Positions 8,243 to 18,239 of a stretch of DNA of 38,234 bases are shown here, one piece after another; position 1 is the first letter of the stretch; every line of letters starts with the position of its first letter. Position numbers and translations under genes: made by a program. The notes beneath the pieces are model-generated. The model was given only the letters and a program-made list of their open reading frames with translations, ran no database searches and was not told where the DNA came from. Source of the DNA: a virus; the IMG/VR virus record IMGVR_UViG_3300011115_000493, positions 1-38,234 of that record, one strand, 5' to 3'.

Positions 8243-8439
8243 ACTCTCACTCCGTTGCCTTCCCGCCTAGCGGTAAATTTCATGCCTGTCCTCTTTTGTG
8301 CCTTGTAGTTTGCATTACAAATAATTTGAATCTTTGACTCTGGCACAAAGAAGCACTCACCCAATTCCATTTCTTTATAAGGGTATCTTTTAGTCCTCTC
8401 AGAAGGTAATGGAATATTACTTTCCACTGCAATTGACAT
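8227..8439 (-). CDS. Small basic protein, first gene of the late operon
   Basis: 70 residues ending in a basic beta-rich pattern (KRTGMKFTARREGNGVRVWR). I have seen similar short proteins with this ending in aquatic phages, without known function. The ATG at 8439 follows a good AAGGAGA site, and the start codon overlaps the -35 box of the opposing rightward promoter. As the first leftward gene after the divergent gap it could be regulatory, but no HTH is visible. Confidence 0.55.
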   Translation of the reverse strand: MSIAVESNIPLPSERTKRYPYKEMELGECFFVPESKIQIICNANYKAQKRTGMKFTARREGNGVRVWRIE

Positions 8440-8460
8440 ATACTCTCCTTAATCTATTTA
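8433..8460 (+). promoter_or_regulatory. Rightward early promoter
   Basis: A perfect -35 TTGACA (8433-8438) is followed after 16 bp by TATTTA (8455-8460). Transcription would start near 8467, only about 11 bases before the ATG at 8478, which has no clear ribosome-binding site. The -35 box overlaps the start codon of the opposing gene (8437-8439). Confidence 0.55.
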
Positions 8461-8465
8461 ATCCA

Positions 8466-8494
8466 ATAATACACACTATGTTAGAAACATACAA
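8466..8494 (-). promoter_or_regulatory. Possible leftward promoter overlapping the rightward one
   Basis: On the minus strand TTGTAT (8494-8489), a 17-bp spacer and TATTAT (8471-8466) would start transcription near 8459 into the gene at 8439. The -35 is only a partial match. It lies within the first codons of the rightward gene, so the two units would interfere. Confidence 0.3.
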
Positions 8495-9188
8495 TGAGTA
8501 TCACCTTGGCGATAACCTTATACACCTTAATTATCTAAGGCGCTTGCAACTCCCATTAGGTGAGGACATTGTTCACCACTGCAATCCCATGCACCACGCT
8601 CAGCTATTACCGCTTACCGAGGGTACAGCAATCACCTTAGCGGATCTATACATACCACCCACGGCAGTCAACGCTTGGATTGGGCGAGATAACTATTTTT
8701 ATACCCATCCACTACAGGCTAATTGGGTGTTATTTCACTTATCTTGGTTCGATCATTTGTCTAATCTTTTAGGGGTAGACAACCCCATAGCTTGTAGAGA
8801 GGACTTACTCTTTGAGTACCCTGCCTTAAACGCTCCCCTCCCACTATCCTTTGATACCCTCATAATCAACGCAGAGCCGAAATCAAACCAGTTACCAACC
8901 TTTAGTCATGGATTCTTTAACAGGCGGGTAAAAGAGCTATTAAACGCTGGCAAGAGGGTGATTACTACGAATCCCACAGGGATGTGCCTATCGACTTTAG
9001 AGATGGGTATGGATGTAACAGCCATTGGTTCTCTATCCAAATACTGTACCGCCATAGAAGGGGTGGCTACAGGTCCTATTTGGACAACTTTTAATGTCTT
9101 TAATTTAGAAAATATCAAGAGTAGGGTTTTGTACTGCGATATTCAAACAGTCAATCTGACGGATAACACCGTAACCAAAAAACTGTAA
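8478..9188 (+). CDS. GT-B-like glycosyltransferase (family 9-like), tentative
   Basis: 236 residues. The opening ETYNEYHLGDNLIHLNYLR resembles the first strand and GD loop of heptosyltransferase-like (family 9) GT-B enzymes, and the C-terminal half (VITTNPTG ... STLEMGMDVTAIGSLSKYCTAIEGVATGP) resembles their donor-binding Rossmann half. At 236 residues it is shorter than the usual 320-350, so parts of the fold are reduced. The ATG at 8478 is preferred over one at 8409, because the glycosyltransferase-like strand starts there and the longer form would run into the divergent gene. First gene of the rightward unit. Could be a nucleotide-binding protein of other function. Confidence 0.45.
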   Translation: MLETYNEYHLGDNLIHLNYLRRLQLPLGEDIVHHCNPMHHAQLLPLTEGTAITLADLYIPPTAVNAWIGRDNYFYTHPLQANWVLFHLSWFDHLSNLLGVDNPIACREDLLFEYPALNAPLPLSFDTLIINAEPKSNQLPTFSHGFFNRRVKELLNAGKRVITTNPTGMCLSTLEMGMDVTAIGSLSKYCTAIEGVATGPIWTTFNVFNLENIKSRVLYCDIQTVNLTDNTVTKKL

Positions 9189-9531
9189 TTTTCTATGGGG
9201 GGAGAACGGAATAGGGCACGCACAATCCCCACTCCCTGCCCAATTGAAGTGCCAATCTTTTGTGCAATTCTAGGCTGCTGGTTAGGTTACCTGACCAAAT
9301 TACCAGGCTAGTGCAGTGTTGCTCAACACTCTAGTTAGTAGCGTACCCTAATCAGTACACCTAATGACTAACGATCACTTAATCTCGCCTATGATCCTAC
9401 CCGTATCATGGTAAACCCTTGCTCGGTTAAAGTTGCCATTGTTTCTATTTTTCTGACAGTTGTCTTACCTATTAATCTAGTTACTTACTAAATTAACTAT
9501 TTATCAATAGTCTTATTATATTAATAGGATC

Positions 9532-9560
9532 ACTATAGAAAAAAACTATCAATTTGTCAA
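9532..9560 (-). promoter_or_regulatory. Strong leftward promoter in the early intergenic block
   Basis: Minus strand: perfect TTGACA (9560-9555), a 17-bp spacer, then TATAGT (9537-9532), with AT-rich sequence upstream of the -35 as in an UP element. The first 18 bases are nearly those of the promoter at 2250-2277. Transcripts would run leftward through the structured block, antisense to the gene at 8478-9188, and on toward the late genes, so it may be the main late promoter. Confidence 0.55.
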
Positions 9561-9582
9561 TCTTAATTAAAATATTTATTTA
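9554..9582 (+). promoter_or_regulatory. Possible rightward promoter for the antirestriction gene
   Basis: TTGTCA (9554-9559), a 17-bp spacer and TATTTA (9577-9582) precede the gene at 9664. It shares its -35 bases with the opposing leftward promoter. The region is AT-rich, so chance matches are easy. Confidence 0.35.
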
Positions 9583-9590
9583 AAGATTAG

Positions 9591-9616
9591 TAGTATTAAT
9601 AGTATTAATAGTATTA
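9591..9616 (+). repeat. Triple 9-bp direct repeat TAGTATTAA
   Basis: TAGTATTAA occurs at 9591 and 9600 and, lacking its last base, at 9609, with no spacing between copies. It lies between the promoter and the ribosome-binding site of the antirestriction gene. The arrangement resembles short iterons or an operator array, or may be simple AT-rich slippage. Confidence 0.7.
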
Positions 9617-9663
9617 CAATCAAACTGTAGTAAACAAAAACCTAACTAAAGGATATAAATATC

Positions 9664-10524
9664 ATGAGCATAGAAAACAAAGTTTATCAACAAGTAACCG
9701 ATAGAATTATTGAGCAATTAGAAAAGGGCGCTATTCCATGGGTTAAGCCCTGGAACGCTACTAGCAGCGCTGATAAGAATGTTATCTCTAAAAAAGAATA
9801 CAACGGGATCAATCGTTTAATTCTAGGTATGTCAGGCTATACAAATAGTGTATGGGGATCATTCAAGCAATGGCAGGAATTAGGCGGTAATGTTGCTAAG
9901 GGTGAAAAAGGCACAATGATTGTTTTCTATTCCCCTATTGTGAAAGAGGCGTTAAACCCTGCCACTGGTAACAATGAGCAATCTATGTATCACTGCTTGA
10001 AATCGTACTATGTTTTCAATGTAGATCAAGTTGAGGGTATCGAGATTGAAAAGCCCGAAGTAACGCCTAGAGTATTTGAGCCCTCAATAGCGCTTGATGA
10101 GCGTATTTTGAAAAGTGGTGCCAATATCAAGCATGGTGGCAGCCAGGCATTTTATAGCCCTAGTACTGACTCAATCGGTATGCCAGATCGTAATACTTTC
10201 ACCGATGATAACAACTATTATGCAACTATCTTGCATGAATTAACGCATTGGTCTGGCGCTAAACATAGGCTTGATCGTACTAAAGGCAAGCGTTTTGCTG
10301 ATAGTGCTTATGCGTTCGAAGAATTAGTGGCAGAAATGGGGGCTGCTTTCCTATGCCAGGACTACGCTATTAGTGGTGATCTACGCCACGCTGGCTATAT
10401 CGGTAATTGGCTTAAGTGCCTAAAAGCAGATAACAAGGCGATATTTAACGCTGCTGCACTTGCTCAAAAAGCAGCAACTTATATTAATGAATTAGATGCA
10501 CTGACTAACCAGGCAGCAGCCTAG
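9664..10524 (+). CDS. ardC: ArdC-type antirestriction protein with zinc metallopeptidase domain
   Basis: 286 residues with two recognisable parts. Residues 1-125 match the ArdC N-terminal single-stranded-DNA-binding domain (QVTDRIIEQLEKGAIPWVKP, then a beta-rich segment ending YYVFNVDQ). Residues 150-275 form a zinc metallopeptidase-like domain with H191-E192-x2-H195 (LHELTHWSG) and a downstream acidic helix (EELVAEMGAAF, E220/E224) for the third ligand. ArdC proteins protect incoming DNA from host restriction and are seen on plasmids and phages. Being the first gene after a promoter suits early expression. The ribosome-binding site AAAGGA lies within a leader shared with two other genes. Confidence 0.88.
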   Translation: MSIENKVYQQVTDRIIEQLEKGAIPWVKPWNATSSADKNVISKKEYNGINRLILGMSGYTNSVWGSFKQWQELGGNVAKGEKGTMIVFYSPIVKEALNPATGNNEQSMYHCLKSYYVFNVDQVEGIEIEKPEVTPRVFEPSIALDERILKSGANIKHGGSQAFYSPSTDSIGMPDRNTFTDDNNYYATILHELTHWSGAKHRLDRTKGKRFADSAYAFEELVAEMGAAFLCQDYAISGDLRHAGYIGNWLKCLKADNKAIFNAAALAQKAATYINELDALTNQAAA

Positions 10525-10954: not shown

Positions 10955-11043
10955 ACTATAAAGACAGTCTATTAGATAAGATCATTCTAGTGATCTCATT
11001 ATTCGCTGTAATACCCTTAATTTGGCTATTAATGGCACTGTAA
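10951..11043 (+). CDS. 30-residue single-pass membrane peptide
   Basis: MNYKDSLLDK is followed by a 20-residue hydrophobic segment (ILVISLFAVIPLIWLLMAL), a complete transmembrane span. The ATG overlaps the previous stop by 4 bases (ATGA), which argues for coupled translation. A rho-independent terminator follows 18 bases after its stop. Function unknown; similar tiny membrane peptides modulate host membrane proteins, but nothing specific can be said here. Confidence 0.5.
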   Translation: MNYKDSLLDKIILVISLFAVIPLIWLLMAL

Positions 11044-11061
11044 GGATCGTTTACCAATAAG

Positions 11062-11088
11062 TAGGGGCATACTAGCCCCTATTTTTTT
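11062..11088 (+). terminator. Rho-independent terminator of the first early operon
   Basis: A perfect 7-bp stem TAGGGGC/GCCCCTA (11062-11068 with 11075-11081) with a 6-base loop is followed by seven T residues (11082-11088). It closes the operon at 9664-11043. Confidence 0.85.
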
Positions 11089-11518
11089 AAGCGCTTATAG
11101 AGCGTTTAAATCATTCTCTTATATTTCAATCTATTTTCCCTATGTTTTAACTCTTTTTTGAGAGAGATTGTTTTACTTATTCTTATAAAAATCACGATCA
11201 AAAATTCAGTCGCGCATACGCGCAGGCGAAAGATTTACTAGGGTGGTTTGGCTGGCAATCCATTACGGCAGTCAGCAGCAGGTAGGCTGCCAACAGTAGC
11301 AGGGTGGGAAAAGAATTAACTTACCTTAATTTGATTACCCCATAAAAAAAGTTAGTTAGCACCTAACCCGCTATTCATATAGGGGTGATCGCTTTTAAGC
11401 GGTGGTTATCGTTTATCGAGCGTTGCTTAACTAAAGAGGTGCAGCCCTGTAAAGGTCCCCTAGATGGTAGCCAACTCGTTTATCTGTATCTATCACCACG
11501 ATATTTACAAGGACTGGG

Positions 11519-11644
11519 TTATGGTCCCGTTTAGAGTGTTTTACTGGTGATTTTGATGGTGAGGTCTTAAATCGTTATGGGAACCCAATCGCATAACAGA
11601 CCCAAAACCACCACTAAAACATTCTTGCGGGAATTACACCATAA
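11519..11644 (+). ncRNA. 126-nt long imperfect hairpin
   Basis: Nested pairings read outward to inward: 11519-11524 with 11639-11644, 11525-11529 with 11628-11632, 11534-11543 with 11615-11624 (one G:U), 11545-11549 with 11609-11613, 11551-11555 with 11603-11607, 11563-11566 with 11599-11602 and 11574-11579 with 11592-11597. About 41 base pairs in one rod with small internal loops and one 7-base bulge. This is far more than expected by chance in 126 bases. Confidence 0.7.
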
Positions 11645-11672
11645 AAAAATAAATTACACAAGCATTGTTTAA

Positions 11673-11760
11673 ATACAACAGATTAGTAAAGAGTGTATTG
11701 CATTAAGATTATTAATCCTTTAGAGTGTAGTTGTTGTATCCGATTGACCTAACTAAAGGA
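11673..11760 (+). promoter_or_regulatory. Leader with Shine-Dalgarno-covering helix and crossing alternative helix
   Basis: TCCTTTAG (11716-11723) is exactly complementary to CTAAAGGA (11753-11760), the ribosome-binding site of the gene at 11770. ATACAACA (11673-11680) is exactly complementary to TGTTGTAT (11732-11739). The two 8-bp helices cross, so they form a pseudoknot or alternate. Direct repeats AGAGTGTA (11690-11697, 11722-11729) lie inside. This is the build of a translational switch; no ligand class is recognised. Confidence 0.5.
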
Positions 11761-11769
11761 GTATCCAAC

Positions 11770-12000
11770 ATGAAATTCTGTATTGATTGTATTCACTATG
11801 AGGACTTGACAAGCTTATGCCTCAAGACTAACTACACTGATTTAGTTACTGGCAAGACTGAATATCGTAACGCTCATACTGAAAGAACCCTAGACCTGAC
11901 AGGTTGCGGTAAAGAAGGCAAGTTCTTTAAACCACAGCGCCATAAGATATATTCGGCTGCTGATCTAGATGATTTATCCACAATTCCATTCGGGAGATAA
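11770..12000 (+). CDS. Small cysteine-containing (zinc-ribbon-like) protein
   Basis: 76 residues starting MKFCIDCIHYEDL. C4-x2-C7 and further cysteines at C17 and C47 could hold a metal. The ATG at 11770 follows AAAGGAG, which can be buried by the leader helix; an in-frame TTG at 11731 is not needed. First gene of the recombination operon. Family not firmly recognised; similar short CxxC proteins occur in phage early regions. Confidence 0.6.
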   Translation: MKFCIDCIHYEDLTSLCLKTNYTDLVTGKTEYRNAHTERTLDLTGCGKEGKFFKPQRHKIYSAADLDDLSTIPFGR

Positions 12001-12002
12001 GC

Positions 12003-12191
12003 ATGGCAACGAGAAAAACAGTAAAGACTATCAACGAGATTGATCGCTTAAAGAACTTGATTGCAAGACAAGACGATCAGCTAGACCAGCTATCTGACGA
12101 ACTTAAAGACGCAAAAGAACAGGCTGAGTTCTGTCGCAAGCAGATTAATCACTATCTGGCATTAGTGAACATATTAACGAGGGGATCATAA
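12003..12191 (+). CDS. Small coiled-coil protein
   Basis: 62 residues, with an almost continuous heptad pattern from about residue 10 to 50 (IDRLKNLIARQDDQLDQLSD onward). Starts 2 bases after the previous stop, and its own stop overlaps the next start by 1 base (TAATG). Probably a dimeric helical protein made with the exonuclease, perhaps a partner; no direct evidence. Confidence 0.55.
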   Translation: MATRKTVKTINEIDRLKNLIARQDDQLDQLSDELKDAKEQAEFCRKQINHYLALVNILTRGS

Positions 12192-13090
12192 TGAACGACC
12201 AAGCAGACTTTGCAGACGAGGTTAGAAATAGCGCCTGGTGGAGTGGTGATAGTCGTAAGGCTGCCAATGGTAGAGCAGTAGACGCTATTCTTACTAAACA
12301 AGGCAAGATGCCTATTCCTGACTTGTCGCAAGTTGAAGTGGTGCAAATGGGTCATGTGATGCAGCCGATCATTGGCAAACTAGCCCAGGAGAAGTTACGC
12401 ATTGAATTAAAAGAAGCTGACTATGCTATGACTCACCCTAAGCATGACTGGTTTAGATCACACTTTGATTTCATTAGCGCTGATGGTAAGACGCTAGTTG
12501 AGGCTAAGAACTACAACGCTGGCACTAGGTCAAAGTTTGACGCTGATACCAATACGATCCCCTTGGCTGACTATGCCCAGTTAGTGCATGAAGCTGCTTG
12601 TCATGGTGTTGAGCGCATTTACTTGGCGGTTTTATTTGGCGGACAAGAGTTTCAGACCTTTGAATTTAAGATCAGTGAAGCTGAGAAGGATGAATTTATA
12701 CAGAAGATGGCTGTGTATTGGGGCTTTGTCAAGGCTAATACCTTGCCTGAGGCGGAAACCATTGAGCAAACTAAGCTGATTTATCCAATCTCTACTGAGG
12801 AGCAAGTTGTAGCCACGCAACAAATGGAACAAGCAGTAGCCCAACTCAAAGCAATCAAGGGTCAAATTAAAGAGCTTGAAGGCGCTGAGGAGCAAATAGA
12901 AGTAGCGATCAGGAACGCTCTAGGTGACAAATCAGCCGTAGTGGGTGTAGACGGATCAACGCTAGTGACTTGGCGCTCTACTAAGCCTTCTATGCGCTTT
13001 GCTAGTGATCTATTTAAGCAAGCCATGCCAGATATTTACGAGAAGTTTGTTATGGAGATGCCAGGATCACGGAGGTTCTTAGTCAAATGA
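12191..13090 (+). CDS. YqaJ/lambda-type recombination exonuclease
   Basis: 299 residues. The N-terminal 180 residues carry the PD-(D/E)XK fold of YqaJ viral exonucleases: an early WW motif (NSAWWSGDSRKAA), the GHVMQPIIGKLAQEKL helix, D93 (RSHFDFISADG) and E104-x-K106 (LVEAKNYN). The C-terminal part (about 200-260) is a coiled coil. Such enzymes resect double-stranded ends 5' to 3' to give 3' tails for the partner annealase, here the RecT gene two positions on. The helix residue usually Glu is Gln58 here, which may be a family variant. Part of the recombination operon. Confidence 0.82.
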   Translation: MNDQADFADEVRNSAWWSGDSRKAANGRAVDAILTKQGKMPIPDLSQVEVVQMGHVMQPIIGKLAQEKLRIELKEADYAMTHPKHDWFRSHFDFISADGKTLVEAKNYNAGTRSKFDADTNTIPLADYAQLVHEAACHGVERIYLAVLFGGQEFQTFEFKISEAEKDEFIQKMAVYWGFVKANTLPEAETIEQTKLIYPISTEEQVVATQQMEQAVAQLKAIKGQIKELEGAEEQIEVAIRNALGDKSAVVGVDGSTLVTWRSTKPSMRFASDLFKQAMPDIYEKFVMEMPGSRRFLVK

Positions 13091-13170
13091 ACACTCTTGA
13101 GTTTGTCATTTGGGCAGTAGTAGCAACTTTTATCATTGAAGGTGTTTTATTAATGGGGAAACTATTATGA
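13087..13170 (+). CDS. 27-residue membrane peptide between exonuclease and annealase
   Basis: MNTLEFVIWAVVATFIIEGV and a short tail: one hydrophobic span with little else. ATGA overlaps at both ends (with the exonuclease stop and the RecT start) make an in-frame coupled chain, which argues that it is translated. Function unknown; it may also serve only as a translational bridge. Confidence 0.45.
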   Translation: MNTLEFVIWAVVATFIIEGVLLMGKLL

Positions 13171-13994
13171 GCAATAACTTAATACCTTATGCAGATATGC
13201 AACAGATGGCAGAGGCTATGGTCAAGAGTAATCTATTTGGCATGAAGGATGTAAACCAGGTCATCGCTTTAGGGCTAGTAGCACAGGCTGACGGGATGCC
13301 ATTTGCTAGTGCAGTGCGAGATTACGACATTATTCTAGGTAGACCAGCACTCAAGTCAGCCAGTATGCAAGCACGCTTTCAAGCTGCTGGTGGCAAGGTG
13401 GAATGGAAGGTTTACACCGATGATGAAGTGACGGGTATTTTTTCACACCCCAATGGTGGCACGCTAGAGCTAACTTGGACAATCGAGCAGGCACAACGGA
13501 TTGGTTTAGTTAAGCCTAATTCTGGCTGGTCAAAGTATCCACGGGCAATGCTTCGGGCACGGTGTCTTAGCGAAGGAATCAGGACAGTATTCCCAGGGTG
13601 TCTTGGCAATATGTACGCCCCCGAGGAAGTGATTGATTTTGAGCCACAGACAGCACCTAAGCCAAAGCACATGGGTATCGTTACTAAGCTAGGCAATGAG
13701 ATAGTCACCATTGCTGATCTTAAAGAGGACATGATCAAAGGTATACCCATGTATATCCCAGGATCAGACGAACCTTACGCTCAGTATCTTACGGTTGATG
13801 ATTGGATTGATGGGTACGCAGAGATGCACGCTAAGATCCATGAGTCTACCAAGCTCTCACCAGAGGAAAAAGACGAGAAGATCCAATCTTTAAGGCAGTG
13901 CAATGATACCTATACGAAAACTTTTGACGGCAATACAGTTGCCAAATTCTTATCCAAGCTCACGATCCATAGAAAGGAAATCGCAAATGGCTAG
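13167..13994 (+). CDS. recT: RecT-family single-strand annealing protein
   Basis: 275 residues. The segment VKPNSGWSKYPRAMLRARCL and the following GIRTVFPGCLGNMYAPEEV are typical of the RecT/Redbeta superfamily, as is the N-terminal stretch on substrate selection (ADGMPFASAVRDYDIILGRP). It coats 3' single strands and anneals them, working with the exonuclease encoded just upstream. The pair probably supports recombination-dependent replication and concatemer formation, as no polymerase is encoded. The C-terminal 70 residues are charged and helical. Confidence 0.85.
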   Translation: MSNNLIPYADMQQMAEAMVKSNLFGMKDVNQVIALGLVAQADGMPFASAVRDYDIILGRPALKSASMQARFQAAGGKVEWKVYTDDEVTGIFSHPNGGTLELTWTIEQAQRIGLVKPNSGWSKYPRAMLRARCLSEGIRTVFPGCLGNMYAPEEVIDFEPQTAPKPKHMGIVTKLGNEIVTIADLKEDMIKGIPMYIPGSDEPYAQYLTVDDWIDGYAEMHAKIHESTKLSPEEKDEKIQSLRQCNDTYTKTFDGNTVAKFLSKLTIHRKEIANG

Positions 13995-14250: not shown

Positions 14251-14374
14251 TATTATTTTAATCACGATGCCGATAGCCCAAGCGGGTACTAAATGCGAAC
14301 CTGATAGCAGGGGAGGCTTTTGCTGTTGGGATGTAGAACGAGATGGCATCTTTAAACCAATATCCTGTGCATGA
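14222..14374 (+). CDS. Small secreted cysteine-rich peptide
   Basis: 50 residues. MLKTAMFLFSIILITMPIAQ-A is a typical Sec signal peptide, with likely cleavage after the AQA at 19-21. The mature part is about 29 residues with four cysteines (C25, C34, C35, C49) that could form two disulfides in the periplasm. It overlaps the SSB-like gene by 29 bases and the RusA start by 4. A perfect Shine-Dalgarno predicts high expression. The role is unknown; an envelope-acting peptide (superinfection exclusion, inhibition of a periplasmic protein) is an inference. Confidence 0.65.
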   Translation: MLKTAMFLFSIILITMPIAQAGTKCEPDSRGGFCCWDVERDGIFKPISCA

Positions 14375-14760
14375 TTATTCTTGATCTACCTTACCCGCCT
14401 TCAATCAATAATTATTGGTTGACTAGCGGGCATAGGCGATACATTAGTAAAAGGGGTATGGAGTTTAGAAAAGCAGTCTGGCTTTACTGCTTAGAATGGA
14501 AAATAAGCAAATTGGGAGATCAAGCCGTGATGGTTCACATTGTTTTAAGACCAAGATCAAAGAAGCTCATGGATATTGACAATTGCGCTAAAGCTATTTT
14601 AGACAGCCTAGAACACGCAGGAATTATTACTTCTGATGTCCAGGTTGAGCGTTTAATGATTGAAAGGGGGCAGCCAGTCAAAGGTGGCGGTTGCCGTGTG
14701 TTAATTGAAGTTATGTCCTCCGATAGCTCAGAGTTGAGCCTTTCACAAGAAGGCAGTTAG
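14371..14760 (+). CDS. rusA: RusA-type Holliday junction resolvase
   Basis: 129 residues, the usual RusA size. Key residues of the family are visible: D68 and D70 in MDIDN, K74, and D89 in ITSDVQVERL, after the N-terminal DLPYPPSINNYW strand. RusA dimers cut four-way DNA junctions, resolving branched intermediates before packaging. It fits the exonuclease/annealase module. The ATG overlaps the secreted-peptide stop (ATGA). Confidence 0.9.
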   Translation: MIILDLPYPPSINNYWLTSGHRRYISKRGMEFRKAVWLYCLEWKISKLGDQAVMVHIVLRPRSKKLMDIDNCAKAILDSLEHAGIITSDVQVERLMIERGQPVKGGGCRVLIEVMSSDSSELSLSQEGS

Positions 14761-15028: not shown

Positions 15029-15468
15029 GGGGTTCAAACACTTATTCTGAAAGACAAACTGTTGCGAACAGAGGTGAGGTGTTGTTTGAGCAGTATTGCA
15101 AAGAAAACCACTATGAATGTAAGCGAGTGGGTTTTGATGAGAAAAACAATGCTGTAAGCACTTTCTATGATTTGTCTACTCTACTACGCAATTTGCCAGA
15201 TTATGTATTAGTGCGCCCTGATAGCACCTATGTGGTCAATGTAAAGGGTACAGCCAACATTAAAAAGAAAGAGATTGATCTGCTGCCACTGATGATGGAG
15301 TGGTTTTCTAGTCGATCAGCGCCCTTAGTCTATGCTTTTTGTTTTGAACATAATGATCCCTTGTTTATTCATCCTGAGCAGATGATTGACTTGTACCGTA
15401 GATCAGTTGATAAACAATGGTCTGATGGGGTCATTTACCGTAATTTGAATTTAATGGAATTTGCATGA
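15025..15468 (+). CDS. Possible PD-(D/E)XK-fold nuclease
   Basis: 147 residues. The layout resembles small restriction-like or resolvase-like nucleases: E18 in NRGEVLFEQYCKENHYECKR, D59 in LPDYVLVRP, and N72-x-K74 in YVVNVKGT. The usual Glu of the ExK pair is replaced by Asn, a substitution seen in some family branches, so catalysis is plausible but not assured. Coupled by ATGA overlaps on both sides. Context (after RusA) favours DNA processing; a fold-only or inactive relative is the alternative. Confidence 0.5.
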   Translation: MRGSNTYSERQTVANRGEVLFEQYCKENHYECKRVGFDEKNNAVSTFYDLSTLLRNLPDYVLVRPDSTYVVNVKGTANIKKKEIDLLPLMMEWFSSRSAPLVYAFCFEHNDPLFIHPEQMIDLYRRSVDKQWSDGVIYRNLNLMEFA

Positions 15469-16082
15469 AACACGCTAGTAAGGCAGAATTAATTGCGTTT
15501 GAGCAGGAAACAGCGCAGTTGTGGGAAAACGGGGATTTACCGTACCTTATTCACCTTTCAGGGGGTAATGAGGATTTTCTGATTGATTTGTTTGGTGAGG
15601 CTAATGAGGGGGACTGGTTCTTTTCTACCCATCGCAATCATCACCACGCCCTTTTAGCAGGAATACCTAAAGATGAGCTACAGAATTCGATTTTGGCTGG
15701 AAATTCTATGTTTGTGTATTCTCGCAAGCATCGTTTTTTTACTAGCAGTGTGCTTGCTGGTACTACTTGTATTGCTGCTGGCGTAGCCTATGCCTTAAAA
15801 GAAGCGGGTAGTAGCAACCGTGTCTGGTGTTTTTTAGGTGACGGGGCTGAAGATCAAGGTCATTTCTATGAAGCGGTCCGTATGGTCGCAGGGCATGATT
15901 TGCCTTGTACCTTCATCATTGAGGACAACAATCGCTCAGTGGATACCACTCTAGCAGGGCGCAATCCCTTTGAGTTTCGGTTTAGGATGCCAGGATGCGT
16001 TATCCGTAACCACTACACCCCTACTTATCCTCATGCTGGTAACGGCACGAAGAAGCACATTATCTTTAAGGAGCGCAAGTGA
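15465..16082 (+). CDS. TPP-dependent enzyme, E1-alpha-like subunit
   Basis: 205 residues matching the thiamine-pyrophosphate-binding half of 2-oxo acid dehydrogenase E1-alpha. Seen in order: STHRNHHHALLAGIP (54-68), which fits the E1-alpha RxHxxxLxxG loop; the AGTTCIAAGVAYALK helix (98-112); and the TPP/magnesium motif G125-D126-G127 followed after 27 residues by N155-N156 (FLGDGAEDQG ... EDNN). E1-alpha is normally 320 residues or more, so this is a stripped-down core. It lacks the long C-terminal region with the phosphorylation loops. Partner is the E1-beta-like gene at 16633. Substrate unknown. Confidence 0.8.
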   Translation: MKHASKAELIAFEQETAQLWENGDLPYLIHLSGGNEDFLIDLFGEANEGDWFFSTHRNHHHALLAGIPKDELQNSILAGNSMFVYSRKHRFFTSSVLAGTTCIAAGVAYALKEAGSSNRVWCFLGDGAEDQGHFYEAVRMVAGHDLPCTFIIEDNNRSVDTTLAGRNPFEFRFRMPGCVIRNHYTPTYPHAGNGTKKHIIFKERK

Positions 16083-16636
16083 AGGTATTGGTTGCTTGTG
16101 AGTTTTCTGGTGTTGTTAGGGATGCTTTCTTGCGGGGGGGGGTAGAAGCTATGAGTTGTGATTTTTTACCAACAGAATCACCAGGACCGCATTATCAAGG
16201 CGATATAAGGGATGTATTAGATTACCCTTGGGATTTGATGATTGCTCATCCACCTTGTACCGATTTATCAGTTAGTGGGGCTAAACATTTTCCAGCCAAG
16301 AAATTGAATGGTAAACAACAATTTGGAGCGTCATTTTTTATGATGTTAGCAAAATCAGATATTTCTAAAATATGTATAGAAAATCCTGTTAGCGTTATGT
16401 CAACCTTATATTGCAAGCCAAATCAAATAATCCAACCTTGGCAATTTGGGCATGGGGAAACAAAGTCTACTTGTTTATGGCTTAAAAATTTGCCAAAACT
16501 TGTTCCTACAAACATTGTTAATGGGCGTGAAACTAGAATACACAAAATGCCACCAAGTCAAGATAGGTGGAAACTAAGAAGCATTACATATCAAGGAATA
16601 GCAGATGCTATGGCATATCAATGGGGTAATTTATGA
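16079..16636 (+). CDS. Cytosine-C5-methylase-like protein with poly-G tract
   Basis: 185 residues, GTG start overlapping the previous stop (GTGA). The N-terminus (VLVACEFSGVVRDAFLRGG, then CDF and GDIRDVL) follows the AdoMet-binding motifs of 5-methylcytosine methylases. AHPPCTDLSVSG has the catalytic-type Cys60, and E101-N102-P103 stands where ENV is usual. No target-recognition domain is present, so it is a short phage relative. A run of nine G (16134-16142) lies in codons 19-22, and the second half is visibly more AT-rich than its neighbours. The gene splits the two TPP-enzyme genes, suggesting insertion. Confidence 0.7.
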   Translation: MKVLVACEFSGVVRDAFLRGGVEAMSCDFLPTESPGPHYQGDIRDVLDYPWDLMIAHPPCTDLSVSGAKHFPAKKLNGKQQFGASFFMMLAKSDISKICIENPVSVMSTLYCKPNQIIQPWQFGHGETKSTCLWLKNLPKLVPTNIVNGRETRIHKMPPSQDRWKLRSITYQGIADAMAYQWGNL

Positions 16637-17148
16637 GCTATAAAGACGCACTAATTCGTGCCAATACCTATTTGGCTGCTGATCCTAAGACTAGGTTTAT
16701 AGGCTATGGCTTACTTAAAGGTCGAGCTTTAGGTACGCTAATCAATGTGCCAGAAGCCCAGATCATTGAAATGCCAGTTGCTGAGAATTTAATGATGGAT
16801 ATGGCTATTGGTATGGCTCTGGTGGGCTGCAAACCAGTAGTGTTCTTAGAGCGCATGGACTTTTTAATGAATTGCATGGATGCGCTAGTTAACCATCTAG
16901 ATAAGATCAGCACGATCTCCCAGGGCGAATTTAATCCAAAAGTCATCATTCGGTGCATTGTAGGCAACAAAAACAAGCCTTTATACACGGGATTGACCCA
17001 TATTCAGGACTTTACCGAAGGTTTACAGGCTATGGTGACTATGCCAGTAGTGCAATTAAAGACCGTTGCTGACATCAATTATTCGTATGAAAAAGCCGAC
17101 AAAGCCTTATATTCAACGGTTTTAGTGGAATATAAGGACTTAATATGA
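16633..17148 (+). CDS. TPP-dependent enzyme, E1-beta-like subunit (pyrimidine domain only)
   Basis: 171 residues matching the pyrimidine-binding domain of E1-beta/transketolase. EMPVAENLMMDMAIGMALVG (46-65) aligns with the xISEnxxxGxAiGaAl motif, with E51 as the glutamate that activates the aminopyrimidine of TPP. KPVVFLERMDFLMNCMDALV and TGLTHIQDF follow in the expected order. The C-terminal transketolase domain of E1-beta (about 150 residues) is absent. With the alpha-like gene it makes a minimal two-domain TPP enzyme. No lipoyl E2 or E3 gene is present, so a dehydrogenase-complex role is unlikely. Confidence 0.78.
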   Translation: MSYKDALIRANTYLAADPKTRFIGYGLLKGRALGTLINVPEAQIIEMPVAENLMMDMAIGMALVGCKPVVFLERMDFLMNCMDALVNHLDKISTISQGEFNPKVIIRCIVGNKNKPLYTGLTHIQDFTEGLQAMVTMPVVQLKTVADINYSYEKADKALYSTVLVEYKDLI

Positions 17149-18239
17149 AAACTAACAAATACTCGGATTTCAAGATTTTTCATGTGGCGGGGAAGCTAAA
17201 TTCGTTTTTAGAAAACACGGTCACAGCGCCCATTTATGTTCGTATCAAGCCAATTAACTTATGTAACCACGGTTGCTTTTTCTGTACCTACAGTACGGGC
17301 TTTAGGGTCAAAGACGGGGGCGAGGAGGAGCATATCCATACAGGTATGCACGAGGACATGAAAGAGGATGACACCATTCCTAGAATGAAAATGCTAGAGA
17401 TACTGCATGACCTATACAAAATGGGTGTCAAAGCAATCACTTACTCTGGCGGAGGTGAGCCACTCATGCACCCAGACATAGTGGAGATCATGGTCAAGAC
17501 TTTGGATTACGGTATGGATCTATCCATTATTACTAACGGTCAAAATTTAGCCAAGGAAAGAGCCGTGGTGCTGCGTAATGCGAAATGGGTAAGGGTTAGC
17601 ATGGACTATACCAATGGCGCAGAGATGAAGCGTTTTAGGAATGTTCCAGAAAAGAGTTTTGACAGCGTGATTAAGAATATCGAGGAGTTTGCGAAGTACA
17701 AAGCAAAAGACTGTGATCTAGCAGTTAATTATATTGTGCACCGCAACAATTACGAAAACTTGGGGGTGTTTACACGCCTATTGAAAAGTATTGGAGTGGA
17801 AAATGTGCGCTACAGCCCTATGTATGTACCAGATTTTTATAATTATCACAATGCCATTGCTGATTCTGTTAATGCTCAACTTAAAGAGGCTGCCACGCTG
17901 GTTGACGATAGCTTTAGCGTTAATAGCACTTACAACATTACTCCTGGCAGCAGTCACTCGCCCATCAGGTCTTACAACCGTTGCTACATCATGCAGACAG
18001 TGCCCGTCATCGGGGCTGACCTTGGGGTATACGCCTGTCACAACAAAGCCTACGACAGCACGGGGCTTATCGGTTCGCTAAAGGATCAGAGCTTTAAGGA
18101 TCTATGGTACAGCCAAGCAACCAAGGATTACATGATGAACTTCAATGCCAAGCGTACCTGTTTGCATGAGTGTTCTAATGACCGCAAGAATATTTTGATT
18201 AACGAAGTAGTACAAGCCAGTACCGATAACTTTATTTAG
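17145..18239 (+). CDS. Radical SAM/SPASM-domain enzyme
   Basis: 364 residues. Residues 34-47 (IKPINLCNHGCFFC) hold the radical SAM cluster motif C40-x3-C44-x2-C47. SGGGEP (101-106) is the SAM-binding glycine motif. The C-terminal region has further cysteines (C280, C298, C339, C343; GVYACHNKAY and CLHECSND) as in SPASM domains carrying an extra iron-sulfur cluster. These enzymes start radical chemistry on peptides, sugars or other small molecules. An insert at 55-75 rich in His and Glu is unusual. ATGA overlap with the E1-beta-like gene ties it to the TPP cassette. Confidence 0.85.
   Translation: MKTNKYSDFKIFHVAGKLNSFLENTVTAPIYVRIKPINLCNHGCFFCTYSTGFRVKDGGEEEHIHTGMHEDMKEDDTIPRMKMLEILHDLYKMGVKAITYSGGGEPLMHPDIVEIMVKTLDYGMDLSIITNGQNLAKERAVVLRNAKWVRVSMDYTNGAEMKRFRNVPEKSFDSVIKNIEEFAKYKAKDCDLAVNYIVHRNNYENLGVFTRLLKSIGVENVRYSPMYVPDFYNYHNAIADSVNAQLKEAATLVDDSFSVNSTYNITPGSSHSPIRSYNRCYIMQTVPVIGADLGVYACHNKAYDSTGLIGSLKDQSFKDLWYSQATKDYMMNFNAKRTCLHECSNDRKNILINEVVQASTDNFI

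Follow-up and report, generated by a model that had tools for sequence, protein, structure and literature searches.

A structured RNA, probably of the minus strand, with a covarying loop-strand helix in the early region of an uncultured phage genome

Gene surroundings of the gap and recurrence of its sequence

The stretch of DNA analysed here, referred to as the window, is a complete IMG/VR virus record of 38,234 bases. Genes for an ArdC-like antirestriction protein, a RecE-like exonuclease, a RecT-like protein and RusA lie near a gap in its early region (Table 1). A sequence-only reading of the window had described this gap as some 700 bases without a gene, rich in self-complementary segments and preceded by a terminator, and all of this was borne out. 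An ORF scan found no frame of at least 50 aa at 11044-11769, that is, between a 30-codon frame ending at 11043 and the ATG at 11770, bar one TTG-started extension of the next gene; on the minus strand no such frame lies between 9119 and 12144 of the window. An inverted repeat followed by seven T occupies 11056-11088. Inverted repeats are numerous within the gap, the best having 23-nt arms (11533-11555 and 11603-11625), and 11096-11769 folds better than shuffled sequence on either strand (z = -3.8 for plus and -2.6 for minus, each against 20 shuffles). Two other parts of the window deserve mention. A second gap of 475 nt (9189-9663) lies behind an ORF at 8409-9188 whose 259-aa product has no Pfam or PHROG match, and at 15465-18239 two ORFs match the two parts of phrog_34187 (dehydrogenase E1 and transketolase domains); they enclose a methyltransferase-like ORF (phrog_757) and are followed by a radical SAM/SPASM protein.

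Relatives of the locus were fetched by searching with its exonuclease and ArdC-like protein. In a nucleotide profile search, about 300 nt around window positions 11345-11645 recurred at the equivalent place in these relatives, and sequence matches to the RNA were found in 166 of 265 loci. With a covariance model of 183 positions, E fell below 1e-7 in 17 of 89 additional loci and, among more distant loci, in 16 of 100, many of the matches being opposite in orientation to the neighbouring genes. As several locus ids can share one contig, distinct sequences were used where possible; after copy removal, 112 distinct 180-nt cores fell by sequence into three clades, clade I (57, including the window), clade II (39) and clade III (16). 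A pattern for clades II and III occurred in 83 stretches of viral contigs. The only full match to the RNA in a named phage record is MW202825.1, which was found via a relative's exonuclease gene. The unannotated stretch at 3759-4436 of L266 (MW202753.1) has open frames but shows no trace of the RNA.

Broad conservation is confined to about 11344-11661, the RNA together with its putative promoter. The ~250 nt at 11096-11343 are matched mainly in near relatives and lie outside the RNA unit, so the earlier view of one structured RNA over the whole region stands for only part of it. These ~250 nt are non-coding and contain inverted repeats, and the near relatives that match them include L002, L003, L005, L007 and L008.

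The Rfam covariance-model search on both strands, which the sequence-only reading had suggested, matched no family. At the gathering threshold nothing was found on either strand of the whole window, and relaxing E up to 10 added only chance-level microRNA models. In sets of 12 and 6 relatives the RNA was likewise unmatched, the sole match at gathering score being a tRNA in L288. Models of GOLLD, ROOL and the phi29-type packaging RNA are included in Rfam. BLASTN of the whole region and the relatives' RNAs against 50,697 phage records returned short, chance-like matches and MW202484.1 only; a plasmid search for the RNA found none, and two RNA patterns gave 0 matches each in a genome collection. 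The part of the literature searched, with most subscription journals and bioRxiv outside its scope, names no such RNA.

Table 1. Features of the RNA locus and nearby genes in the window
Feature	Position	Strand	Remarks
ArdC-like antirestriction gene	9664-10524		near gap
RNA, ~283 nt	11344-11626	minus	predicted 5' end at ~11626, predicted 3' end at U tract; from conservation, covariation and strand evidence
U7 tract	11344-11350	minus	behind weak A-U-rich inverted repeat in window sequence; taken as 3' end
Hairpin P2	11367-11385	minus	81.6% paired; 1/5 pairs two-sided; weakly supported
Hairpin P3	11390-11401	minus	4/4 pairs two-sided; 78.9% of cells paired
Strand a	11402-11406	minus	ACCAC in RNA; pairs with L6 (GUGGU in RNA)
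Motif GATAAAC, copy 2	11411-11417	minus	columns invariant in alignment A1
P5 arm	11422-11475	minus	P5a 11472-11475 / 11422-11425; P5b 11457-11461 / 11435-11439; conserved internal loops
Motif GATAAAC, copy 1	11478-11484	minus	columns mostly invariant in A1; present in clades II and III too
Hairpin P6	11485-11509	minus	loop L6 at 11495-11499; two-sided change in 6/7 pairs
Hairpin P7	11511-11527	minus	loop ATNACCCA; 99.6% of cells paired; two-sided change in 3/5 pairs
Domain B long hairpin	11533-11625	minus	outer helix of ~20 pairs, inner helices, apical loop
Strand c	11557-11562	minus	UCACCA in RNA; in domain B internal loop; L6-complementary, as is strand a
Putative extended -10-like box	11633-11638	minus	(TGG)TGTAAT; 5/6 to TATAAT, TG in extended position
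Putative -35-like box	11656-11661	minus	TTGTGT; 3/6 to consensus; 17-nt spacer to -10
RecE-like exonuclease	12191-13090		near gap
RecT-like protein	13167-13994		near gap
RusA	14371-14760		near gap

Domains, strand and ends of the RNA

Alignment of homologues with a test for covariation, also suggested by the sequence-only reading, yielded short helices that covary strongly. On this comparative evidence, the gap holds a structured non-coding RNA, most likely read from the minus strand, that belongs to a covarying RNA family found in many uncultured freshwater phages. The kind of element was thus correctly foreseen, with the unit being ~283 nt on the minus strand, not ~680 nt. The family is real and, so far as Rfam 15 and the portion of the literature searched show, previously unlisted.

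The 5' part of the RNA, domain B, is a long hairpin that clade III does not have. Counts on the minus strand cover 26 distinct sequences, after 10 loci belonging to a different subtype, in which the end was not found, were dropped; 18 of its 32 pairs change on both sides, and 95.1% of cells are paired against 34-57% when the partners are slid. In MW202484.1 (L401, 3600-4300), a domain B-like hairpin with a pseudoknot stands without any recognisable domain A, a sign that domain B may be able to exist on its own.

Domain A, the 3' multi-helix domain, was aligned over 54 clade I sequences, 51 of them distinct, with a hand-drawn structure (alignment A1). Both sides change in 25 of 40 pairs over these 54 sequences, and 92.1% of cells are paired against 76.6% with shuffled partners and 38-52% with slid partners; these figures overstate independence, because the drawing was guided by the very alignment on which it is scored, and that alignment is of related sequences. 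Its helices are almost purely Watson-Crick, with no excess of G-U. Within the P5 arm, all four P5a pairs show two-sided change (94.6% paired), as do 2 of 4 pairs in P5b, and other clades carry other inserts in its place. The two GATAAAC motifs (GTTTATC on plus) flank this arm and are retained even where it is replaced.

The most informative helix of domain A is that between strand a and the loop of P6, hereafter a-L6, whose two strands lie ~90 nt apart. In A1 it is paired in 100% of cells, with two-sided change in 4 of 5 pairs, and strand a takes 17 different sequences. Taking all three clades together (for clade I, 178 loci reduced to 170 by a motif filter), an exact 5-nt complement was found in its fixed place in 42 of 47 unique combinations, compared to 24 of 1996 (1.2%) when strand a was taken from a different type. 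The five failures are one-base C-A mismatches at the end of the helix.

Strand c of domain B shows a similar complementarity to L6: among 25 distinct clade I cases, 19 reach at least 6 nt, against 29% of mismatched combinations, and 6 have no match. An earlier version of this test, with too narrow a filter, gave 7/9 against 21/50. In clade II, complements of at least 7 nt between c and c' occur in 24 of 32 distinct members and 91 of 915 mismatched combinations, a result used only as support since at least five members (including L283, L288, L413, L419 and L439) were mis-segmented. In L070, L131 and L007, strand c reads TACAGG or ACAGG on plus and has no match in L6; there it is complementary to the P5 loop (CCTGTA or CCTGT), as seen in these few related sequences only.

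An initial reading put the RNA on plus, with domain A ahead of domain B, and alignment A1 and model R1 were therefore written on plus; their pair positions are valid for either strand, whereas their G-U and A-C counts are not. This reading was dropped as domain B and the promoters indicate minus. On the minus strand domain B has 85 G-U cells in 15 pairs and 7 A-C cells in 4 pairs, and on plus the A-C mismatches fall exactly where minus has G-U. Shuffle-corrected folding energy of domain B favours minus in 38/38 clade I and 20/20 clade II representatives. Together with the upstream promoter-like sequences, these two lines of evidence assign the RNA to the minus strand. Domain A alone folds no better than its shuffles on either strand and has no clear strand bias; by clade, there is no preference in clade I (21/38 favour plus), and minus is preferred in clades II (15/20) and III (9/9). 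Folded as single sequences, the two strands of the window RNA do not differ (z of -3.03 on minus and -3.52 on plus). An unbiased stem-finder, which counted 197 A-C and 46 G-U on plus, was given no weight because A beside runs of G produced false A-C pairs.

Transcription would start at about 11626, downstream of the two putative promoter boxes. In clade I, all 33 distinct flanks have the end of their best promoter site 7 nt ahead of the first base pair of the long hairpin, with a mean score of 9.42; the mean is 7.02 in shuffles and 5.65 on plus at the opposite end. These flanks are not independent, being related to one another and reaching into the start of the following gene. TTGACA lies upstream of 22 of 32 clade II members, where 1.06 would be expected, and 8 of 12 clade III flanks score at least 8 in the promoter scan against 24% of shuffles. 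The -35 box of the window itself is poor, and a separate scan with a stricter consensus listed no minus-strand promoter at the 5' edge of the RNA in the window. At the other end, the U7 tract is likely to be the 3' end of the window RNA. A run of at least six T within 70 nt behind domain A is found in 7/54 clade I, 3/40 clade II and 21/25 clade III flanks, and with U tracts so uneven over the clades, such a tract can serve as a putative 3' end in the window but not across the whole family. A run of at least five U also follows domain B directly in 29/29 distinct clade II and 13/37 distinct clade I members; in such members, transcription may mainly yield domain B alone, as a short, terminated RNA.

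Gene settings and rival readings

The RNA is found in three settings. In the window it runs against the surrounding early genes, and 131 of 161 usable clade I loci are without a sense ORF of 60 aa just behind it. In clade II a sense ORF follows closely in all 54 usable loci (9 clade I and 6 clade II loci were too short for this count). In clade III the RNA diverges from an operon of a small ORF, the terminase large subunit and portal (8/8 loci by ORF layout), with profile checks agreeing for terL in 2/2 tested and for portal in 1/1. Because one RNA occurs in three settings, a trans-acting product is favoured over a leader or a part of the packaging machinery. A leader or attenuator acting in cis, in which a promoter would be followed by domain B serving as a (regulated) terminator, then by domain A and an early operon, and with clade I as an inverted derivative, would suit clade II well: its TTGACA promoters (22/32), the U run after domain B (29/29) that resembles a terminated leader, and the sense ORF behind domain A (54/54) are all accounted for. 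However, the window RNA and most of clade I oppose the operon and have no sense gene behind them, and clade III dispenses with domain B and points away from the terminase genes; taken over the whole family a leader is therefore unlikely. The clade III setting and the kissing-type covariation of a-L6 are, in turn, what one might expect of a phi29-like packaging RNA, a ring at the portal joined by loop-strand kissing. Yet the window copy sits in the early region, ~4 kb from the packaging genes and on their far side, and neither the window nor the relatives match the Rfam models, which makes such a role quite improbable.

The conserved element might instead act as DNA, as a folded single strand or a replication origin. 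Its domain A helices are nearly all Watson-Crick without a G-U excess, no replication initiator was recognised among the early genes scanned, and the cumulative GC skew reaches a local minimum around 9-9.5 kb, ~2 kb from the RNA. Against this stand the strong one-strand G-U bias of domain B, the conserved promoter-like sequences at its 5' edge and an orientation that flips between clades, and we consider an element of this kind improbable. Chance folding or a decayed gene is hardly credible: some members do have long stop-free frames (119 aa in L099, for example), but the helices covary, the motifs are conserved over clades and codon periodicity is absent, with variable columns of domain A spread 33/33/37 over the codon phases and a length not divisible by three in 162 of 215 internal gaps. 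A coding reading was rejected, as indels across the family keep no frame. The origin or degenerate gene that the sequence-only reading held in reserve is disfavoured by the same covariation, flat codon phase and gap lengths.

Taken together, we favour a self-standing RNA that acts in trans rather than as a leader. The best joint explanation, to which we give a probability of about 0.6, is a covarying RNA made as its own minus-strand transcript and acting in trans as a scaffold held by kissing. Of its parts, we infer with good support that a putative sigma-70-like promoter of its own would drive a separate ~283-nt minus-strand transcript, whereas action in trans as a folded scaffold during infection is weakly suggested. 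Domain B and the 3' domain would be held together by L6 kissing strand a, or its look-alike strand c, through strict Watson-Crick pairs, and a-L6 could form inside a single molecule or link separate ones. Both conserved GAUAAAC segments could offer a binding surface for a protein or another copy. As a and c cannot both occupy one L6, the RNA would have to switch or pair between molecules. As to function, our best guess is a scaffold or oligomer of RNA that loop-strand kissing keeps together. A bolder version, which we regard as doubtful, is a phage RNA of a new class whose self-assembly follows a kissing code that is both variable and self-specific, where the choice of a or c as partner of L6 governs oligomer exchange or a two-state switch during host takeover.

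Comparison with known phage RNAs

Large structured RNAs are known from phages. GOLLD forms an RNA-only 14-mer cage and ROOL an RNA-only multimeric cage, and it is this assembly that has made them prominent; the phi29-type packaging RNA is another structured phage RNA, joined by complementary loops. Like the latter, the RNA described here is structured and appears to be joined through a loop, and in clade III it adjoins packaging genes; unlike it, the window RNA lies in the early cluster and has no Rfam match. The sequence-only reading had placed the gap with GOLLD and ROOL by type, which survives as an analogy but fails on Rfam match, length and tRNA. In a report on GOLLD and ROOL (PMC12286853), many GOLLD members are described as longer than 800 nt and near tRNA islands, and pairing of L20 with J13/15 covaries and is intermolecular in the cryo-EM structure. 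ROOL is described there as a phage and prophage RNA with multiple pseudoknots, whose J6/8-L8 pairing covaries and proved to be intermolecular.

The window RNA and GOLLD are both phage-borne, environmental and pseudoknotted, with covarying pairing between a loop and a joining region; in contrast, the window RNA is ~283 nt, about one third of GOLLD's length, in a record with 0 tRNA or tmRNA genes over its 38,234 bases, and has no match to the GOLLD model. Similarly, a-L6 is the type of contact made by J6/8-L8 in ROOL, a resemblance and not homology, whereas the ROOL model match and the tRNA island are absent and the helices differ as far as compared. By analogy with GOLLD and ROOL, a-L6 may be an intermolecular pairing, which would say nothing of kinship. 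More broadly, uncultured phage genomes carry RNA classes missing from Rfam. The present RNA is smaller than the cage-forming ones, its promoter-like sequence is clear, its helices have been tested by covariation and it has more than 100 distinct members, and its structure and assembly are therefore directly testable with in-vitro transcripts.
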